Shown: in pieces, positions 1 through 37,721 of the stretch
How the letters are laid out: the number at the start of each line of letters is the position of its first letter
Position numbering within the stretch: position 1 is the stretch's first letter
Notes under the pieces: generated by a model
What the model was told of the DNA's origin: nothing
Databases searched by the model: none
The model's input: only the letters and a program-made list of their open reading frames with translations
Made by a program: the position numbers and the translations under genes
Virus record (IMG/VR): IMGVR_UViG_3300008110_000261
Span: 1 to 39,837 of that record
Strand: one strand, 5' to 3'
Length of the DNA stretch: 39,837 bases
Origin: a virus

Positions 1-114
1 CAAGTCCTGCAGTCCAGATCTGACATTGCAGTACTCTGAGACTGGTTGTTCGTGCAGGACTCGCTCATGGAAGTTCTCTACTTGGATTCCAAATTTAGGG
101 CAATGCACAAACTT
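1..114. repeat. Terminal direct repeat, left copy
   Basis: These 114 bases are identical to the last 114 bases of the window. The minus-strand PAPS-reductase-like gene reads through the repeat without a stop and finishes beyond it in the other end of the window, so the repeat most likely marks closure of a circular contig or a circularly permuted genome. A true short terminal repeat of the virion DNA is possible but less likely, because a gene spans it. Confidence 0.95.
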
Positions 115-783
115 GCCAAGTCGCTTGTCCACACAGTTGAAGCAGGCATGAACATAGTCTGAGTTCATGTGCTTATTGGGCTTGCTGACCACATTTTCGT
201 CGTAGCGAAACCGGTCGAATGGAACCTCGTTTGTTTTCAAGTACGAAGCCACATCTTCGTCCGTCCAAGTTCTGAGCGGAAACCACATCTCGGTGTTTTG
301 GCCCAAAGACTTTTTATCGACTTCCAGAGGGATACTCCCGGTAATGGGATCCTCGTCACTGTTTTTGTGTCCGCACAGCAAGACATCAAAGTCAGACACA
401 ATGTGTCCCTTGGGTCGGTTCAGCCATTCCTTGCCGCACACCCAAGGAGACTCCGCATCCATGGGTTCGGTTCCGCGCATCACCTTCAGCACACCTTCCC
501 CAAGAGAGTATGTCTCACAGACATCAATCCTGTTGTTGCCATGCGTTAATGCCACCGATACAGGAACCCAATCGTGTACGGTCATGCCATACAGTTCCTG
601 CAGCCTGTGATGAAATGCGTACTTGTGAGACAAAAATGGAAGCTTGAAGTGAATGACCTCAATGTCCGGCCGGATGTTTCTGGCAAGATCGAGCAGCACG
701 GTGCTGTCTTTCCCGCCACTCCAGAGAACCGCAGGTCTTTTGGCTGCACACAAAGCAAGCCGTATGATGTCTTGAGCCGTCAT
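1..783 (-). CDS. PAPS reductase / adenine-nucleotide alpha hydrolase family protein (N-terminal 261 codons; cut by window edge)
   Basis: The frame starts at an ATG overlapping the stop of the preceding gene (TAATG) and runs off the window edge. On the circle it continues from 39723 to a TGA at 39667, giving 279 residues. Residues 22-27 are SGGKDS, the pyrophosphate-binding loop of the N-type ATP pyrophosphatases that include PAPS reductase, DndC and TilS. The C-terminal part has paired cysteines (HACFNCVDKR, then VHCPKFG near residue 220) that could bind metal or a cluster. Known members of this superfamily activate a substrate with ATP; phage members are common and mostly of unproven role, with sulfur metabolism or nucleic acid modification as usual guesses. 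Its 3' end overlaps a CxxCxxCC protein, a possible Fe-S partner. Family assignment is firm; substrate is not inferable. Confidence 0.85.
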   Translation of the reverse strand, partial: MTAQDIIRLALCAAKRPAVLWSGGKDSTVLLDLARNIRPDIEVIHFKLPFLSHKYAFHHRLQELYGMTVHDWVPVSVALTHGNNRIDVCETYSLGEGVLKVMRGTEPMDAESPWVCGKEWLNRPKGHIVSDFDVLLCGHKNSDEDPITGSIPLEVDKKSLGQNTEMWFPLRTWTDEDVASYLKTNEVPFDRFRYDENVVSKPNKHMNSDYVHACFNCVDKRLGKFVHCPKFGIQVENFHERVLHEQPVSEYCNVRSGLQDL

Positions 784-21838: not shown

Positions 21839-22987
21839 ATGTACAACCGAAACGAAAACCTATCCGGAGCAGAAGCCAGAGCTTTCCTTCGCAATTGGCT
21901 GCGCGAAAACGGTGTAGCTTCCAAGGTTGCAGACAGCCTCACCATGGCTGAACTCAATGAGGCATGGACGGACCAGAGCAATCAGGCTCTGGCGTCCCTG
22001 AAAGACAGGAAGGAAAGCGCTGCAGTTAAGCCCGTTGCGTCCATCCCTGCTGCAGGAAATGAGGCTGCAGCCTCTCTGATGCTTCAGGCTTTGTCCTTGG
22101 TGCAAACCAAGGCCAGCTTGGACGAAGACAGGGTTCTTGAATTGATCAAGGAACACTCGCAACCGAAAGAGGTAAGGCACTCTTTTGTTCTGAAGGACGG
22201 TGAACAGGCCAAAACGACAGGACGCCGTGAGCACGCCTTCTTCCCCTTGATCGTCGCTTGCCTTCAGGCTGGCGTGCATACTTGGCTGGTGGGACCAGCA
22301 GGCTCTGGAAAGACAAGCGTGGTGGGGGCTGCAGCGTCTCTGCTGGGCAGGGAACATCGGGCTGTCTCCGTTTGTGCGCAGACAACCAAAACGGATTTGC
22401 TGGGCTTCATCGATGCAAACGGCGTCTACCGTTCCACCGCTTTCAGGGAAGCCTTTGAACAGGGGATGGTTTTCCTTCTGGACGAGGCAGACAACGGAAA
22501 TCCGAATGTGCTCGCTGTCCTGAATGCAGCCCTTGCTAATGGGGAGATGACCTTTCCGGATCGTACCGTCAAAAGAGGGGACGGTTTCGTTTGCGTGGCT
22601 TGTGCTAACACTTGGGGAACAGGTGCATCCGGTGGATATGTGGGACGCAATCAGATTGATGCGGCGACCTTGGATCGTTTCTTCTTCCTTGAGCTTCCCT
22701 TGGATGAAGGGCTGGAAGCTTCCTTCTTGGGCTTCTCTGATATTCCTTCTCCGGAATTTGACTTGCAGGAAGGTGCAATCCCTTCAGCTAGGGCTTGGCT
22801 CGAGTGTGTCAGGTTGGCAAGGCGCAACGCGGAGAAATACAGCCTGAAAGTAATGATCGGAACCCGTGCGGTAATTATGGGTGAAGCCCTTGCAAAATTA
22901 GGCGTGGGGCTGTCTTGGCTGCACAAAGGGCTTCTGTTCAAATCCTTGGAAAAGACAAGCCAAGGCAAGCTTCTGCAACAGGACTAA
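21839..22987 (+). CDS. AAA+ ATPase, MoxR/CobS-like
   Basis: 382 residues. Walker A GPAGSGKT at 152-159, Walker B VFLLDEAD at 211-218, sensor 1 VACANT at 253-258 and LDRF at 278-281 define an AAA_5 (dynein-related/MoxR/CobS) ATPase. The first ~130 residues are a separate helical region with a SAP-like start (SGAEARAFLRNWLRENGV). Such ATPases usually remodel a partner protein; in phages they are often near a CobT-like or unknown partner. Here the next gene, 24 bases on, is the likely partner. The leader has no clear Shine-Dalgarno; an operator-like dyad lies upstream. Base and word use (many AAGCTT, CTTGG) differ from the minus-strand genes, which may reflect separate origin. Confidence 0.9.
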   Translation: MYNRNENLSGAEARAFLRNWLRENGVASKVADSLTMAELNEAWTDQSNQALASLKDRKESAAVKPVASIPAAGNEAAASLMLQALSLVQTKASLDEDRVLELIKEHSQPKEVRHSFVLKDGEQAKTTGRREHAFFPLIVACLQAGVHTWLVGPAGSGKTSVVGAAASLLGREHRAVSVCAQTTKTDLLGFIDANGVYRSTAFREAFEQGMVFLLDEADNGNPNVLAVLNAALANGEMTFPDRTVKRGDGFVCVACANTWGTGASGGYVGRNQIDAATLDRFFFLELPLDEGLEASFLGFSDIPSPEFDLQEGAIPSARAWLECVRLARRNAEKYSLKVMIGTRAVIMGEALAKLGVGLSWLHKGLLFKSLEKTSQGKLLQQD

Positions 22988-27603: not shown

Positions 27604-27822
27604 TTATTCTTCCTCCTCTTCGGTGCGTTCGTTCAGACAGTTCTCGCACAGGCAGTCTTCGTGTTTTTCGATAGTCACCGTAAAGGTGACACCGTCAAAC
27701 TCTCCTCCGTTCACGCGCATCTGGAACTGTGCCGTGTTGAGTCCGTATTTTGCCAGCAACTGGCAAAGTAGTCTTGCTGCCTTGGTGGCTTTTTCTTCGT
27801 CTGTCTTACTTGGTGTTTTCAT
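27604..27822 (-). CDS. Small protein with C-terminal CxxC and acidic tail (72 aa)
   Basis: 72 residues. The N-terminal half is helical and reminiscent of DUF2786-like starts (EEKATKAARLLCQLLAKYGLN), the middle has strands (GVTFTVTIEKHE), and the end has CLCENC followed by EEEEE. The start overlaps the end of the methyltransferase remnant by 17 bases. Function unknown. Confidence 0.6.
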   Translation of the reverse strand: MKTPSKTDEEKATKAARLLCQLLAKYGLNTAQFQMRVNGGEFDGVTFTVTIEKHEDCLCENCLNERTEEEEE

Positions 27823-28394
27823 GCAGTTGGTTAAAAAGTGTTACAAAAGCTTTTTCCGCGCAGGCAGGCACCACGCCATTGCCCAAAAGTCGCAGTTCGT
27901 CAGTTCGTGAATCAGTCATCGATACTATTTGGCCCAGCACATGGACAGTCTGCGTAGTGCCCTCCGCATTTCCAGCAGATGACATCATCGCAGCATGGGC
28001 AGGGTTCGCAATCGGCCGCGTACACGATACCATCGTCCAGCCCACCGGCAGTCCCATCAGCGTCTCCACCCAACGCGGGTTCAATCTCATGCTGGTTGTC
28101 TCCAGTTGGTTCGGCAGCGTGTCCATCGGATTGCCCTTCCGCTCCTGCGCCCCCTTGCCCCTCGGCCCCTGTGTGTCCCGTGTTGCTGGTGTTGCCCATG
28201 CCTTCACCTGCGCAGTCAGCGGCATTGTTGTTACATCTCCGTTCGCTTTTTGCGACCAAGTTCGCGCAGGCATAAGCTTCGATCTCCGCATAAGCGACTG
28301 TGCGCAGAGTTGGGATAGCTCTGCGTAATCCGAGATCAATGCCTCCGTAGCCGGCACAAAGGCTGATGTGTGTAACTGTTTGGGGAGTATCCAC
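27806..28394 (-). pseudogene. C5-cytosine DNA methyltransferase remnant in two frames, catalytic centre missing
   Basis: From a GTG at 28394 overlapping the helicase stop, one frame reads VTHISLCAGYGGIDLGL (motif I, SAM binding) and VAYAEIEAYACANLVAK (motif II region), as in phage Dcm-type enzymes. Near 28250 the coherent enzyme sequence shifts one base: ATPATRDTQGPRGKG, LNPRWVETLMGLPVGWT and finally DELRLLGNGVVPACAEKAF (motif X), ending at 27806. Between them motif IV (PC), motif VI (ENV) and motif VIII are absent; about 170 residues remain of an expected 300 or more. The first frame also stays open to 27912, ends in a Cys-rich cluster (CEPCPCCDDVICWKCGG), and includes EPALGGDADGTAGGLD, itself methyltransferase-like. 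An inactive remnant is most likely; a new bipartite product is possible. Confidence 0.75.
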
Positions 28395-28395
28395 A

Positions 28396-28986
28396 TTAGT
28401 TTGGTAAAAAGCTTGCTGTCTTGCCGTGGAAGCGGAGCGTTGTCTGAACTCCGCACGGACCGTTGCGCTGATACGGGATCGAGATTGTCCGCAGTTCAGA
28501 TCCTTCCTGCTCATCGAGCTTGATAGCCATGATACAGGTCGCATCCTGCTGGATGGCGCGGCTTTCGCGGGCCTTACCCTGCTCATTGAGTTGAGTGATC
28601 GAGATCACCAGACAACCCAACTCCAACCCAAGCAACCGCAGGGAACGGGACACCTCCGCAACCTCACGCTCCCTAGTTCCCTCGCGCCCCAGATCGCAGC
28701 GGACCAACTGGATGTAATCCACCATCAGCACCTTCAGGCCGGTAGGACTTTTTGCCATCGCTCGAGCCGTTGCGGCGATGCTGGCAATGTCGTACAGGTC
28801 GTCCCTGACAACGATGTTGCTGTTGTGAATCTTGGTAACTGCACGGTGAACACCGTCAATGTCGTGCTGCGTCTTCACGCCTTCAGCCAGCGTGCGGAGG
28901 CTGACGCTGCCAAGTCGAGCGACGATGCGGTCGATTATCTGACTCGCCGGCATCTCAAGGCTAATGATTAGAATCCCTTTTCCCAT
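28396..28986 (-). CDS. DnaB-type replicative helicase, C-terminal half (Walker B to end)
   Basis: 196 residues from the ATG at 28986 (MGKGILIISLEMPASQIIDR); a longer frame from a TTG at 29031 adds 15 residues. It contains the second beta strand and helix of the RecA fold (SLEMP), Walker B LMVDYIQL (87-94), the H3 region VISITQLNEQGKARESRAIQQDA (127-149) and the H4 loop YQRNGPCGVQTTLRFH (172-187). Walker A is missing. The missing part is encoded at 30781-31437, which stops exactly where this begins. Four genes lie between. Activity would require the two chains to assemble into one ATPase site. The start codon overlaps the end of the 87-residue gene by 26 bases. Confidence 0.85.
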   Translation of the reverse strand: MGKGILIISLEMPASQIIDRIVARLGSVSLRTLAEGVKTQHDIDGVHRAVTKIHNSNIVVRDDLYDIASIAATARAMAKSPTGLKVLMVDYIQLVRCDLGREGTREREVAEVSRSLRLLGLELGCLVISITQLNEQGKARESRAIQQDATCIMAIKLDEQEGSELRTISIPYQRNGPCGVQTTLRFHGKTASFLPN

Positions 28987-29224
28987 GTTGTTTGTATTTT
29001 CGTGTAGAATTGTGGGACTTGTGCCCGTCAAACCGTCTGACGAGCAGGTCCACTACTATCTCATCGGTCGATTGATTGATTGGCTTTAGCGATTCTTTTT
29101 CAATCGCTTCATGGCACTCTTCCCTGCTACCCACAAGCAGCACCTCCTGCACAATTTTTGGTCGTGGGAGGTGCCGGATGTGGTCAGCTACCGTCGTTCG
29201 CCGGATGGCTACGAATTTCCCCAT
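28961..29224 (-). CDS. Hypothetical protein (87 aa) between nuclease and helicase C-half
   Basis: 87 residues from the ATG at 29224 (MGKFVAIRRTTVADHIRHLP), overlapping the end of the nuclease gene by 16 bases. The middle has LVGSREECHEAIEKESLKPI, the C terminus is basic and His/Lys-rich (FDGHKSHNSTRKYKQHGKR). Family not recognised. Its tight coupling to the helicase C-half makes a role with that chain conceivable, but nothing in the sequence shows it. Confidence 0.65.
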   Translation of the reverse strand: MGKFVAIRRTTVADHIRHLPRPKIVQEVLLVGSREECHEAIEKESLKPINQSTDEIVVDLLVRRFDGHKSHNSTRKYKQHGKRDSNH

Positions 29225-30449: not shown

Positions 30450-30784
30450 TCGGTTGCGGTAGGTGTTTCAGCGTTTATTTCGAGTCCAAGGCAACCCAGC
30501 ACCATGCCGGATTTGTCTCTGACCAGCTTTGCGGGACTCAGCAGGTCTCGCCGCAATGGGAAGGCTTGTCTGACGAGTGCCGGAACAATGAACATGGTTC
30601 CCGGTTCCTTGGGCGGAACCCCGGTGACACCATTGATGATGGTCTCCAGAATTGGAATACCTTCAATCTGTGCTGTCTGGATTGTCTGAGCGTTCAGACG
30701 AGCCACGCTGCCGGATGGCATGATTGGGTCCATGCCACCAACTTTGATTGGATACGGAGTGAGGTTAACAAATGTGATCTTCAT
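30446..30784 (-). CDS. Conserved phage hypothetical protein (112 aa)
   Basis: 112 residues. VNLTPYPIKVGG, PSGSVARLN, the VTGVPPKEPGTMFIVPALV segment and RRDLLSPAKLVRDKSGMVLGC match a family frequent in phage and prophage early regions (VNLTPH.I.....PSG..AR......GLP....GT..IVS..V......R.DL..PG..VRD..G.V.GC). Its function is not known. It is the first gene of the four-gene block that separates the two helicase halves, and its ATG overlaps the stop of the N-terminal half (ATGA). Confidence 0.8.
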   Translation of the reverse strand: MKITFVNLTPYPIKVGGMDPIMPSGSVARLNAQTIQTAQIEGIPILETIINGVTGVPPKEPGTMFIVPALVRQAFPLRRDLLSPAKLVRDKSGMVLGCLGLEINAETPTATE

Positions 30785-31437
30785 TCTGAGATGAGGTTGG
30801 CGATGATATTGAGTGCTAGCATTGTCTTTCCACTTTTGGTTTCTCCGCCTATGACCAGAAAGTCCCCCAAGCGGATCGGGGTGATGTTATCAATTCTCTC
30901 ATAACCTGTCTTGATGCGTTGTGTCGAGTCGTCACCGGACCGATAGCGATCCATGGCATCGAGCAAGAGCTTCTTGGTGTCCGCAACCTGCGGAGGCATC
31001 AGCTCGGTCTGAATGCCGTCCACCTTCATGGCAATCTCATTCACCAGTTCCGGTGTCTGAATGTCCACGGCTGCGATCTTGGCCAAGCCCTGCTGCATGA
31101 CCAACATCAACGCCCTGCGCTTTGCCGCATTCTTCACAACATCAAGCAGATCCGGAAGGCAACCTTCCAGAGGCAGCAGCGTGTAGAGTTCGGTCAACTG
31201 GTAGAACTGAATCTCGGGAAGACGCTCGCGCAGTTTCTCGAACAACACGCGGACATCGCAACTCGCGTTCCGGGATGTCTGATCCAGAATGGTCTCGACG
31301 ATAGCCCGGGAAGTTGGGTCGAAGATGTCTGCCGTGCTGAACTTCTTCTCCGTAATTTTGTTCAGTAGCGTGGTCGGATGGTTGAGCGCAATGGAGGCAA
31401 TCCCGCGTTCACTCTCGATGGCTTTGGGGATCTCCAT
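30781..31437 (-). CDS. DnaB-type replicative helicase, N-terminal half (ends after Walker A)
   Basis: 218 residues. Residues 5-110 form a DnaB N-terminal helical domain (ESERGIASIALNHPTTLLNKI, DVRVLFEKLRERL, LTELYTLLP), then a linker and the RecA-fold start with TGYERIDNITPIRLGDFLVIGG and Walker A GGETKSGKT (197-205) followed by MLALNIIANLISE and a stop. Intact DnaB would continue with GKGVLIFSLEMP; here that is the start of the gene at 28986, nothing lost or duplicated. Stop TGA overlaps the ATG of the next gene, so translation coupling is normal. No intein residues flank the break. Start is in a TAATG overlap with the upstream gene. Confidence 0.87.
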   Translation of the reverse strand: MEIPKAIESERGIASIALNHPTTLLNKITEKKFSTADIFDPTSRAIVETILDQTSRNASCDVRVLFEKLRERLPEIQFYQLTELYTLLPLEGCLPDLLDVVKNAAKRRALMLVMQQGLAKIAAVDIQTPELVNEIAMKVDGIQTELMPPQVADTKKLLLDAMDRYRSGDDSTQRIKTGYERIDNITPIRLGDFLVIGGETKSGKTMLALNIIANLISE

Positions 31438-34280: not shown

Positions 34281-37200
34281 CTATTTTCTCGGTTTGATGG
34301 GTGGCAGGCTCTTCATGTCATCCATAACTGCCTTGTCTTTAGCGGCCCGGATGTTGTCTGAAATTCCAATCTGCTTGCCGTTTTGGTCGAATGTCCGGAA
34401 CTTGCCGTTCACGGCTTGGATGGAGTACCCGGTGATTCTGTCTCGCAGGAACTTCCCTTCACCCAAGGTTTCCTCCTTGGTGTTGAGAACGCTAAACGGG
34501 ATCGGAGGAACTTCCTTCTGCAACTGGTCTTTCGACACAAAGTAGCTCTTCAGAACCGCATTGATGCGCGGCATATTTTCTGGCCGCAACGGGAGCAGAG
34601 CTTCGATTGCCAGATTGGGATCCAGCATGGCATCCACCTGAAACCGTTCAACCATGTGCTCAAGGCCACGGTTGTACACGCTGCTAAACATATCTCCAAG
34701 CCAAGTAAACCGGTTGAATGCGGAGCTTTTTGGTGTCAGTCCTTTGCCTAGTTTTGAGATTAACCCAAGCAGGTTTTCTTGAGTTTGAGCCTCCATCGAC
34801 TTCTGCAAGCCAGTAAGATCCATCGTGGGCGATGACCCGGGCGAAATCTGTTGGGTGCGACTCCAAGCTTCCATTTGCTCCCGAGCCATATCCATGGCTT
34901 TCAGTTCAACGGAGTCCGGACCAAATGCCACATCAAGAATCTGGCGAATTGGAGAAGTACTTTTCATCATACCATCCAACTTAGCCAAAGACAAACCAAG
35001 CTCACCGGGTGCAAGAGGTCTGTCTGGTTGATTGTCTGTAGACAATGGTCTGCTGTTTTTTTCAACTGCTTGACCAATAAACTGCCTGAGAGCATTTCTC
35101 AGTCCCTGAATGGCTTCTCCAGAAGCATCCTGCGCAGCCATTTGTACCACTTGCTGCATTGATCCAACGGGATCTCTGGATGCAAGGACTTCTCCAATTG
35201 CAACCTGCGGATCTGCCCCTACAAAACTAGTGAAGGCATTTGCTTTGGCTTTGCTGATAAGCTCTGCCTTTTGGTCCTTTGCAAGCGACAGCAAAGCATC
35301 TCGTTGTTCTTTTGCAGCTTCTCTTTCCTGCTTTGGAACATGATCCGGTTGGATTTTTGGTACCTTCTTTGCAGCTTTTTTTGCTGCTTCAGCAGCGTCC
35401 ACAGACAACTCTCCGTTCCGAATGTCTCGAATGTGGTCTTCAAGAACAGATCGAGCTTCTGGAAAGGAATTAAGGATTTCCGATTGCTTGGAGTTTCTAA
35501 TCCAAGCCGTCATGCTTTTGGAGGTTTCTCCTCCTTCCTGAGCCAACTTGTGAACAAACCAATCCGTAACAGCGTCAATTCCTGCTGGACGCTCCTTTAG
35601 GGCCAAGCGCAGTTGTTGCGCAGCACTCAGATCTTGCGTGCCGGATTTGCCGCGCAAAATTTTATCGATGGTTTCCTCTGTGGGAATAGCATTGCGCGAG
35701 GCAACCACCTTGCCAATCTCACCATCTCCGTAGAGGGTCATGGCTTCACTCCACGCCTTGTTGGCTTTTTCGAGTTCAGGCCAAGCCTTGCCGGCAGCAT
35801 CAAGATCCAGTTTCATCCCCTCCCGAATTCTTTGAAGAACTCGGACGGTGTTGTCTTGGCTATTGTCTGCGGCTTCGCTAATTGCCTGATTGATGTTCCT
35901 GTAATCAGTAATGAGTTCGGCAACACTCCGTTCGTGTAGCGGCTTTCCTTTCTTGCCGTTTTTTTTCTTGCCGTACACAGGCTTTCTGATTTTCAGAAGC
36001 CGAGACACAATCCCGGGGGCAATAGCTCTGTCTTTTTTGCCACTTTCACCAAAGCCTTCGCTTCCCTGACTCCACTTCAACGCCTTGTAGGTGTTGTCAA
36101 AAGTGGTTTTGGCTTTGATTGCTTTTGGTGTCTCAAACAGTTGGGATGCGGCTGCAATAACCGTGTCCCCTTCTGTTTTCAAAACATTCCGTACTGCTTT
36201 TGCAGCAGGCTCCCGTGTGCCTGCACGCACTTTGATGCTTTCAATGGCAGCTTCAAGGTTGCGAAGCGTCAAAGATTGTGCCGTTTCTGCGTTGATGATG
36301 CCCTGCTCTCGAGCAGCGTGCGCTGCAGCAGACTGGCGGATAGCAGCGTCGATAGTGTCTGCGTATTGTGTCTGCCCAGCTTCAGACAAGGTTTGGTACA
36401 GTTGATTAGCTTCAGCCAGAACGGTGTTGTACCAGTCTTCAGCAAACTGTCTGGTAGCAGCAGGTGGCGCCCCTTCAGGCGCAAGTTCACCAGCAAGATT
36501 CATGGCAATTGCTCGTTCGTTAGCCGCAGCCCGTTCCGATATTCTGGAATCAGCAGTTGCGCCCAAGACACGCTGCATACGAGCAAGCATTCCACCAACC
36601 AAATCGCCACTCATTAACTGCACGCCATTTTGGTTTACTTTACCGGCTTCTTGAAGCCTGAAGATTGCATCAGTTCTGGCATCTTCAGACACATTCTTTT
36701 GGAACAGCTTGTTCCGAATCTCCAAAGCCTGCCTTGTGGTAGATCCCAGTCGGTCATGTAGCAACCTGCCAAGGTTGTTGCTCTCGAGTGCGCCGCCGGC
36801 AATGAGACCTTGAAAGACACGCTCCGGGTCAATTTCCTGACCTCGATAAAGATCCATTGCCGCTGGGATGGTGGCTCCTATCCCGGCTGCGATGCCGATT
36901 CTTTTGGCCGCAGGGACATCGATATTTGCCAGCGTACTGCCAGCAAAATTCAACACCTGCGTTGGCATTTCTCCCGCCGCTATTTTTGCGGCAGCGTTGC
37001 TTGGCCCAATGAAGATTGGCTTTTCGGTAACAAGGCTTGGAACAAGTTCTCCGGCCAGCCTAGACCAACGGGTTGACCTTTTCTTTTCGTCAAAAACTTG
37101 TTGAGCAAGATCTCTTGAAGTAGATGGAAAGAGTGACTCCTGAAGTGCTCCACCAGCCATGCCGCCGGCAACCGCAAACGGTATGGCTCCGTAAGCAAGC

Positions 37201-37721
37201 GGCGATGCTGCTGCGCCAGCAAGACCTCCTACAGCAGTAGATCCAATTGCGCTGACGGCACCTCGAGCAGCGGCGCCCAGCATGGTTGAGCGCATTTCCT
37301 CTTTGTATGGATTCCAGTACGAATTGAAGGCGCCAAATTTAGGGTCAGCTTCAAACTCCGGATCAAGTAGCCCATTTTGAACAGCAGAGTCCAGCACCTG
37401 TCTTGGTGTCTGAACCTTTGTTTCCTCTCCACCTTGACTGTAACTAAGGGAGTACGGGTTGACTGCGCCAGCAGACAAAAGGGAGAAGTCTCTGGCAAAC
37501 TCCGGCGTGATGTAACCATCAAGCGAGTTCCATGATTCCTGCCGCTCCGTGGGTGCAATCCTAGGATCCGTCAACTCTACCCTTTGAATTCCGCCACCTT
37601 CAATTGGGAAAACAAGTTCCCCGGGCACCTGTTCGACCGGAGATGGTGCCATCAAAAGGTCATACTCAGATCCTGTCTGAGGAGCATCAGGCTGCAGAAG
37701 GATGTCGTATTCGCTGGGCAT
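34281..37721 (-). CDS. Giant virion protein (1146 aa), probable DNA-ejection or internal core protein
   Basis: 1146 residues. It opens with two copies of a short N-terminal motif (PSEYDILLQPDAPQTG and GSEYDLLMAPSP), reminiscent of gp16-type internal proteins. At about residues 140-200 there are hydrophobic Ala/Gly-rich segments (LGAAARGAVSAIGSTAVGGLAGAAA, YGAIPFAVAGGMAGGAL) that could enter a membrane. The remainder is long helices with charged Gln/Glu repeats (AANERAIAMNLAGELA, AAEAAKKAAKKVPKIQ). No transglycosylase or other catalytic motif is evident. Size, placement next to two other Ala-rich virion-type proteins and podovirus gene order indicate a core or ejection protein. Alternative: large tail protein. 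Confidence 0.65.
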   Translation of the reverse strand: MPSEYDILLQPDAPQTGSEYDLLMAPSPVEQVPGELVFPIEGGGIQRVELTDPRIAPTERQESWNSLDGYITPEFARDFSLLSAGAVNPYSLSYSQGGEETKVQTPRQVLDSAVQNGLLDPEFEADPKFGAFNSYWNPYKEEMRSTMLGAAARGAVSAIGSTAVGGLAGAAASPLAYGAIPFAVAGGMAGGALQESLFPSTSRDLAQQVFDEKKRSTRWSRLAGELVPSLVTEKPIFIGPSNAAAKIAAGEMPTQVLNFAGSTLANIDVPAAKRIGIAAGIGATIPAAMDLYRGQEIDPERVFQGLIAGGALESNNLGRLLHDRLGSTTRQALEIRNKLFQKNVSEDARTDAIFRLQEAGKVNQNGVQLMSGDLVGGMLARMQRVLGATADSRISERAAANERAIAMNLAGELAPEGAPPAATRQFAEDWYNTVLAEANQLYQTLSEAGQTQYADTIDAAIRQSAAAHAAREQGIINAETAQSLTLRNLEAAIESIKVRAGTREPAAKAVRNVLKTEGDTVIAAASQLFETPKAIKAKTTFDNTYKALKWSQGSEGFGESGKKDRAIAPGIVSRLLKIRKPVYGKKKNGKKGKPLHERSVAELITDYRNINQAISEAADNSQDNTVRVLQRIREGMKLDLDAAGKAWPELEKANKAWSEAMTLYGDGEIGKVVASRNAIPTEETIDKILRGKSGTQDLSAAQQLRLALKERPAGIDAVTDWFVHKLAQEGGETSKSMTAWIRNSKQSEILNSFPEARSVLEDHIRDIRNGELSVDAAEAAKKAAKKVPKIQPDHVPKQEREAAKEQRDALLSLAKDQKAELISKAKANAFTSFVGADPQVAIGEVLASRDPVGSMQQVVQMAAQDASGEAIQGLRNALRQFIGQAVEKNSRPLSTDNQPDRPLAPGELGLSLAKLDGMMKSTSPIRQILDVAFGPDSVELKAMDMAREQMEAWSRTQQISPGSSPTMDLTGLQKSMEAQTQENLLGLISKLGKGLTPKSSAFNRFTWLGDMFSSVYNRGLEHMVERFQVDAMLDPNLAIEALLPLRPENMPRINAVLKSYFVSKDQLQKEVPPIPFSVLNTKEETLGEGKFLRDRITGYSIQAVNGKFRTFDQNGKQIGISDNIRAAKDKAVMDDMKSLPPIKPRK

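Follow-up and report, generated by a model that had tools for sequence, protein, structure and literature searches.

Background

The two coding regions of M.AquI (CYCGRG), a C5 methyltransferase made of two polypeptides, lie in tandem, and the small subunit of M.EcoHK31I (YGGCCR), likewise a two-polypeptide C5 methyltransferase, is read in a shifted frame inside the gene for the large subunit. In M.AquI motifs I-VIII are found on one chain and motifs IX-X on the other, and in M.EcoHK31I motifs I-VIII and X and the predicted target-recognition domain (TRD) are on the large chain, with only motif IX on the small chain (PMC3404938). An ORF hidden within a phage methylase gene has been described in phage ShiLan, where an out-of-frame HNH endonuclease lies within the methylase as a mobile insertion (PMC11855218). 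In the literature searched, which was covered in part, we found mentions of M.EcoHK31I and M.AquI and this unrelated hidden-HNH paper, and no phage-wide description of dual-frame methyltransferases.

The locus analyzed here very probably represents a phage gene for a two-polypeptide C5 methyltransferase, with the subunits encoded in overlapping frames of the same DNA, in a copy made catalytically dead by an internal deletion. Its family extends the known two-polypeptide C5 methyltransferases, from which it is set apart by the degree of overlap and by its breadth.

Organization of the locus in the window

The window, meaning the whole stretch of DNA analyzed, is one complete IMG/VR virus record of 39,837 bases, and the locus lies entirely on its minus strand. 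The anatomy of the locus, including the deletion, is given in Table 1. Frame A contains motif I, the beginning of the motif II region, a linker, EPALGG and a Cys tail that ends at TGA. Frame B, which is shortened by the internal deletion, begins with a conserved N-terminus; after it come slightly more than one TRD-like WATP module and motifs IX and X. Of the motifs of a functional C5 methyltransferase, the window copy thus retains I in A and IX and X in B; A lacks IV-VIII, and motifs IV (PCQ), VI (ENV) and VIII (QRKRVF, with its QRxR) occur in neither frame. In all 39.8 kb of the record, PF00145 matches nothing but the motif I stub of frame A, and there only model positions 2-42.

The original prediction, that methyltransferase motifs lie in two frames of one short locus from which the catalytic motifs are absent, was borne out in every element that it named. 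The linker-like stretch (EPALGG...) does belong to phage methyltransferases, and the predicted Cys cluster is present, although it has eight Cys rather than seven. When the two translations were checked separately for homology, as had been proposed, frame A matched phrog_116/363 and frame B matched phrog_1008 (E 9e-15), a family to which it belongs, and both recovered viral relatives.

At 27909-27920 of the window, the stop codon of A shares bases with a frame B ATG (ATGACTGA or a similar sequence), as it does at the same place in L003, L004, L014, L015 and L016, so reinitiation could yield a short motif X peptide.

Table 1. Positions of the overlapping methyltransferase frames, their motifs and the neighbouring genes in the window
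Feature	Position	Strand	Remarks
DnaB-helicase C-half gene	28396-29031	minus	upstream neighbour of the two overlapping ORFs
Whole cassette	27823..28402	minus	empty site at this position in the close relatives L104 and L112
TAATGTG	28392..28398	minus	TAA stop of DnaB C-half, ATG of B and GTG of A overlap within 7 nt
Frame B ORF (beta)	27806..28396	minus	196 aa, ATG start, +1 relative to frame A
Frame A ORF (alpha stub)	27912..28394	minus	160 aa, GTG start
Motif I, frame A (SLCAGYGGIDLGL)	28326..28364	minus	
Deletion junction	28245..28250	minus	NLVAK / SERRC in A, ARTWSQK / ANGDV in B
TRD-like module, frame B (KAWATPATRDTQGPRGKGAQERKGNPMDTLPNQL)	28103..28204	minus	near letter-for-letter match in L005
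Motif IX, frame B (LNPRWVETLMGLPVGWT / LNPRWVETLMGLPVGW)	28037..28084	minus	same bases read EPALGGDADGTAGGLD in frame A
Cys cluster, frame A (CEPCPCCDDVICWKCGGHYADCPC)	27939..28010	minus	kept in six other loci with an intact catalytic core
Motif X, frame B (DELRLLGNGVVP)	27866..27901	minus	downstream of the frame A stop
72-aa gene	27604-27822	minus	neighbour on the other side of both ORFs

A two-frame methyltransferase family in viral loci

Relatives were collected by searching viral contigs with each of the window translations, which gave ~90 viral loci, and counts were made on a set of 64 non-redundant loci. In essentially all of the recovered loci the +1 frame is open from the start of the methyltransferase to its end, usually over 300-550 codons, while the +2 frame is always short; a full-length ORF in the +1 frame spans the methyltransferase in ~80 viral loci. 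Within the set of 64, A and B overlap by 837-1,708 nt (median 1,153), and in 60 loci their starts are 2 nt (ATGTG, 38 loci) or 5 nt (ATGANATG, 22 loci) apart. Frame A of intact relatives carries motifs I-VIII with the SAM pocket, the PCQ nucleophile motif, ENV and QRKRVF. Motif IX was found in frame A of none of the 64 loci and in frame B of 61, and motif X in frame A of 53 and frame B of seven. Frame B of the relatives contains repeated WATP modules, which vary in number and are common to different phages. The subgroup of the window (L003, L004, L014, L015, L016 and L025) retains all catalytic motifs; in these loci the conserved Cys tail closes A, and both IX and X lie in B.

Intact phage pairs resemble M.EcoHK31I in that motif IX is on a second polypeptide, in an alternative frame (61/64), and the large subunit has motifs I-VIII and X without IX (X in A in 53/64). 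They differ from it in that the two genes overlap almost end to end with starts 2-5 nt apart, that B has variable WATP modules and that the TRD, predicted on the large chain in M.EcoHK31I, is placed by us in B. In the window copy IV-VIII are lacking, and its large subunit is without the full I-VIII set of the M.EcoHK31I type because of the deletion. The M.AquI partition (I-VIII / IX and X) is common to the window subgroup (7/64), where it was found in L003, L004, L014, L015, L016 and L025, and to L186; of this partition the window copy has only motif I and the IX-X half left. The genes of M.AquI are in tandem, whereas the phage coding regions overlap for the greater part of their extent; in the window subgroup, A also bears a Cys tail. 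As in ShiLan, an ORF is hidden in another frame of a phage methylase gene, but frame B spans the whole gene. A hidden HNH element in frame B was considered and ruled out, as no HNH match was obtained with Pfam or NCBIfam.

L186 (L186:1407-3312) is a more distant relative in which A stops after motif VIII and the +1 frame B carries many WATP modules as well as IX and X, an M.AquI-like split with extensive overlap. A compact dual-frame methyltransferase is found in a Pedosphaera MAG (L183:2991-3773). Both of its frames lack most of the variable region, but it retains X in A and IX in B, and it may be a minimal pair.

Evidence that both frames are coding

Synonymous resampling was carried out on 58 complete loci (mean 389 codons) with codon usage taken from a single-frame control gene of related phages. 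None of the 58 loci contains a stop in the +1 frame, against 8.1 expected per locus, and the probability of an open +1 frame is 5e-4 per locus (0.05% of resampling draws), a value that cannot be multiplied across loci because they are phylogenetically related. Compared with the control, which comprises one gene family and was taken from phages that are in part different, the ratio of substitutions at codon positions 1 and 3 of A (A1/A3) in the motif I-VIII part is 0.5-0.7 vs 0.26-0.34 (75-95% identity), and change at the four-fold sites of A is 0.34 vs 0.54 (80-85% protein identity). Downstream of motif VIII, A1, which is also B3, varies as much as A3 or more, so B is constrained there at least as much as A.

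In the subgroup with motif X in B, differences between motif IX and the A stop are 0.171 at B1, 0.427 at B2 and 0.156 at B3, the pattern of the A frame, and beyond the A stop they are 0.228, 0.169 and 0.618, the pattern of the B frame. This switch at the A stop codon is the strongest indication that A and B are both produced and under selection. Dual coding with selection in both frames is a property of the relatives, as their codon-position rates, a check proposed at the outset, reveal; the initial remark that both frames look like methyltransferase sequence describes the normal design of intact members.

Predicted roles of proteins A and B

Intact frame A matches HhaI residues 15-180 by sequence. 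In its structural model (pLDDT 69), residues 1-172 and the motif X helix at the C-terminus are confidently predicted, while the part between them is poor, with low confidence at residues ~175-290, where HhaI has its small domain. The model aligns with HhaI from 5..309 to 10..325 (199 aligned, Z 19.5, rmsd 3.3), and intact A is accordingly modelled as an HhaI-like large domain without the small domain. Frame B has no Pfam or NCBIfam match, its model is poor (pLDDT 54) and a profile search of Pfam and PDB with the B C-terminus (motif IX-X) gave no match. An invariant block of B (KLNPRWVETLMG) aligns with HhaI motif IX (KLHPRECARVMG) in a 19-residue hhalign match (P 0.005). We infer that B is the missing small, target-recognition domain, the TRD being placed there because of the variable modules and the pattern of constraint, and that A and B together form one methyltransferase.

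In intact relatives frame A would give the large domain with the SAM pocket, PCQ, ENV, QRKRVF and usually motif X, and frame B, read in the +1 frame from a start 2 or 5 nt distant from that of A, would give the WATP modules and motif IX. The two chains would assemble into a single enzyme, which could modify phage DNA against host restriction. In the lineage of the window motif X is in frame B, and A bears a Cys tail; a deletion of ~1 kb in phase for both frames then took out IV-VIII and methylation with them, leaving a remnant that is most likely being lost. It seems fairly probable that phages widely encode both subunits of one C5 methyltransferase in the same ~1.1 kb, in two frames with starts 2-5 nt apart and with target recognition in the overlapped second frame, that the partition flips between M.EcoHK31I-like and M.AquI-like by small indels, and that the window pair lost its catalytic core in both frames at once.

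Deletion in the window copy

The window copy is short by ~1 kb at the junction, in phase for both frames, which removed motifs IV-VIII; the landmarks flanking the junction are ~0.95-1 kb apart in intact L012 and L185 (~950-970 nt on closer measure). Both frames are still in phase because any loss in multiples of three leaves the phase unchanged. Microhomology at the deletion amounts to a few bases at most. An internal deletion that destroyed the catalytic centre and left motif I and a Cys cluster as a stub had been anticipated, with a junction at about 28250, and we found it at 28245-28250. The Cys cluster of the stub, which had been suggested as possibly part of a new protein, is an inherited, conserved tail that was not created by the deletion.

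The exact junction recurs in one other contig, IMGVR_UViG_3300008448_001475 (L193), which is 99.55% identical to the window over 14.4 kb and has zero differences from it within the locus. L104 and L112, with 79-83% DNA identity in the flanks, carry neither frame, and there the helicase runs directly into the next gene. Among named phages, no DNA-level relatives of the window were found. Because motifs IV-VIII are gone, the window copy cannot methylate as a C5 methyltransferase. The locus is wholly absent from close relatives, so the remnant is most likely being lost and is probably decaying. Both frames have stayed open since the deletion and the Cys tail is unbroken, as would be expected from retained function no less than from recent decay.

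Were the reduced pair still in use, the motif I stub with its Zn-like Cys tail and the small IX/X protein would form a non-catalytic DNA-binding or regulatory pair. Such a role would agree with frames that stayed open and with an unchanged Cys tail, IX and X, with a frame B that overlaps the upstream stop and the downstream start like a normal operon member, and with the identity of the window and L193 inside the locus despite a difference of ~0.45% overall. We nevertheless consider it unlikely, given that the catalytic and most SAM-fold elements are gone and that the form is found in only two closely related contigs, the locus being absent from close relatives; the substitutions are too few to measure selection after the deletion. 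Still less probable is the joining of A and B into one methyltransferase chain by programmed ribosomal frameshifting, with the dual start incidental. The constant +1 relation would permit a single chain, and since the A stop overlaps an ATG in phase with B (most of the subgroup has ATGACTGA), recoding or reinitiation there is possible. However, overlapping starts in 60/64 loci and gene-wide constraint on B would not be expected if only the 3' end of B were used, and no slippery site was identified.

The repeated WATP modules in frame B of the relatives raise the question of an assembly artefact in which internal modules collapsed, yet at the junction a module follows directly on the N-terminal core, and no two modules are joined. 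The identical junction in an independent, non-identical contig makes a collapse confined to one assembly unlikely, and very little weight is left to this explanation. Seen alone, the window looks like a plain pseudogene, an ordinary single-chain methyltransferase whose frameshifted 3' end would be the second frame, and the original prediction had implied that the C-terminal motifs came into that frame by a frameshift or deletion. This is already contradicted by L003, L004, L014, L015, L016 and L025, which are intact, with all catalytic motifs, and have the same two frames, so its probability is close to nil. An internally deleted copy of a two-frame methyltransferase gene is the explanation that we retain.

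Distribution and annotation

Eight named phages have a +1 ORF that is nested and closes with a motif-IX-like block, namely Paenibacillus phages Bloom and Lily, Salmonella phage SEN5, Lactobacillus/Lacticaseibacillus phages Lc-Nu, R23.9 and R9.2, Acinetobacter phage ABMM1 and phage C75C1, representing four host groups and one unassigned phage. In none of the eight is motif IX found in A. Some of their records label both ORFs as methyltransferase and others only A, and one notes a 'g62 internal gene'. The phrog_363/phrog_1008 'DNA methyltransferase' pairs of Paenibacillus, Lactobacillus, Salmonella and Acinetobacter phages have the same nested +1 ORF and motif-IX-like end, but in many of them the B ORF is shorter and its start lies far within A. 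A functional account of these pairs was not found in the literature searched.

Frame B gave no match against a plasmid collection, and a scan of bacterial genomes with it gave four loci, three of them of Verrucomicrobiota type. Bacterial contigs with close relatives are mostly Verrucomicrobiota, which hints at a host in this group.

Dozens of phage loci keep a same-strand overlap of ~390 codons open, which makes this an exceptionally strong natural example of dual coding, and the two products seem to belong to one enzyme. The breadth of the intact family and its degree of overlap are of main interest, the window copy being a minor and probably dead derivative. The second ORF of many phage methyltransferase loci has been left unannotated or labelled as a duplicate methyltransferase or hypothetical protein, a reading that is corrected here. 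Such enzymes are predicted to fail if only the annotated frame is cloned, and the arrangement suggests that evolution of target recognition is possible within an overlapped frame.

Other features of the window

A DnaB-like helicase is cut within its RecA fold into two genes on the minus strand (30781-31437 and 28396-29031). The first contains the N domain and DnaB_C positions 2-44, stopping right after Walker A, and the second contains DnaB_C positions 44-253; three genes lie between the halves, one of them a PDDEXK nuclease. No intein was seen at the split helicase, and the same split is present in L104, L105, L106, L016 and L109. A 1,146-aa ORF at 34281-37721 (minus) adjoins the replication genes and matched nothing in Pfam or PHROG. 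An AAA ATPase-type gene at 21839-22987 (plus), located between the structural and the replication block, matches phrog_249 ('porphyrin biosynthesis').
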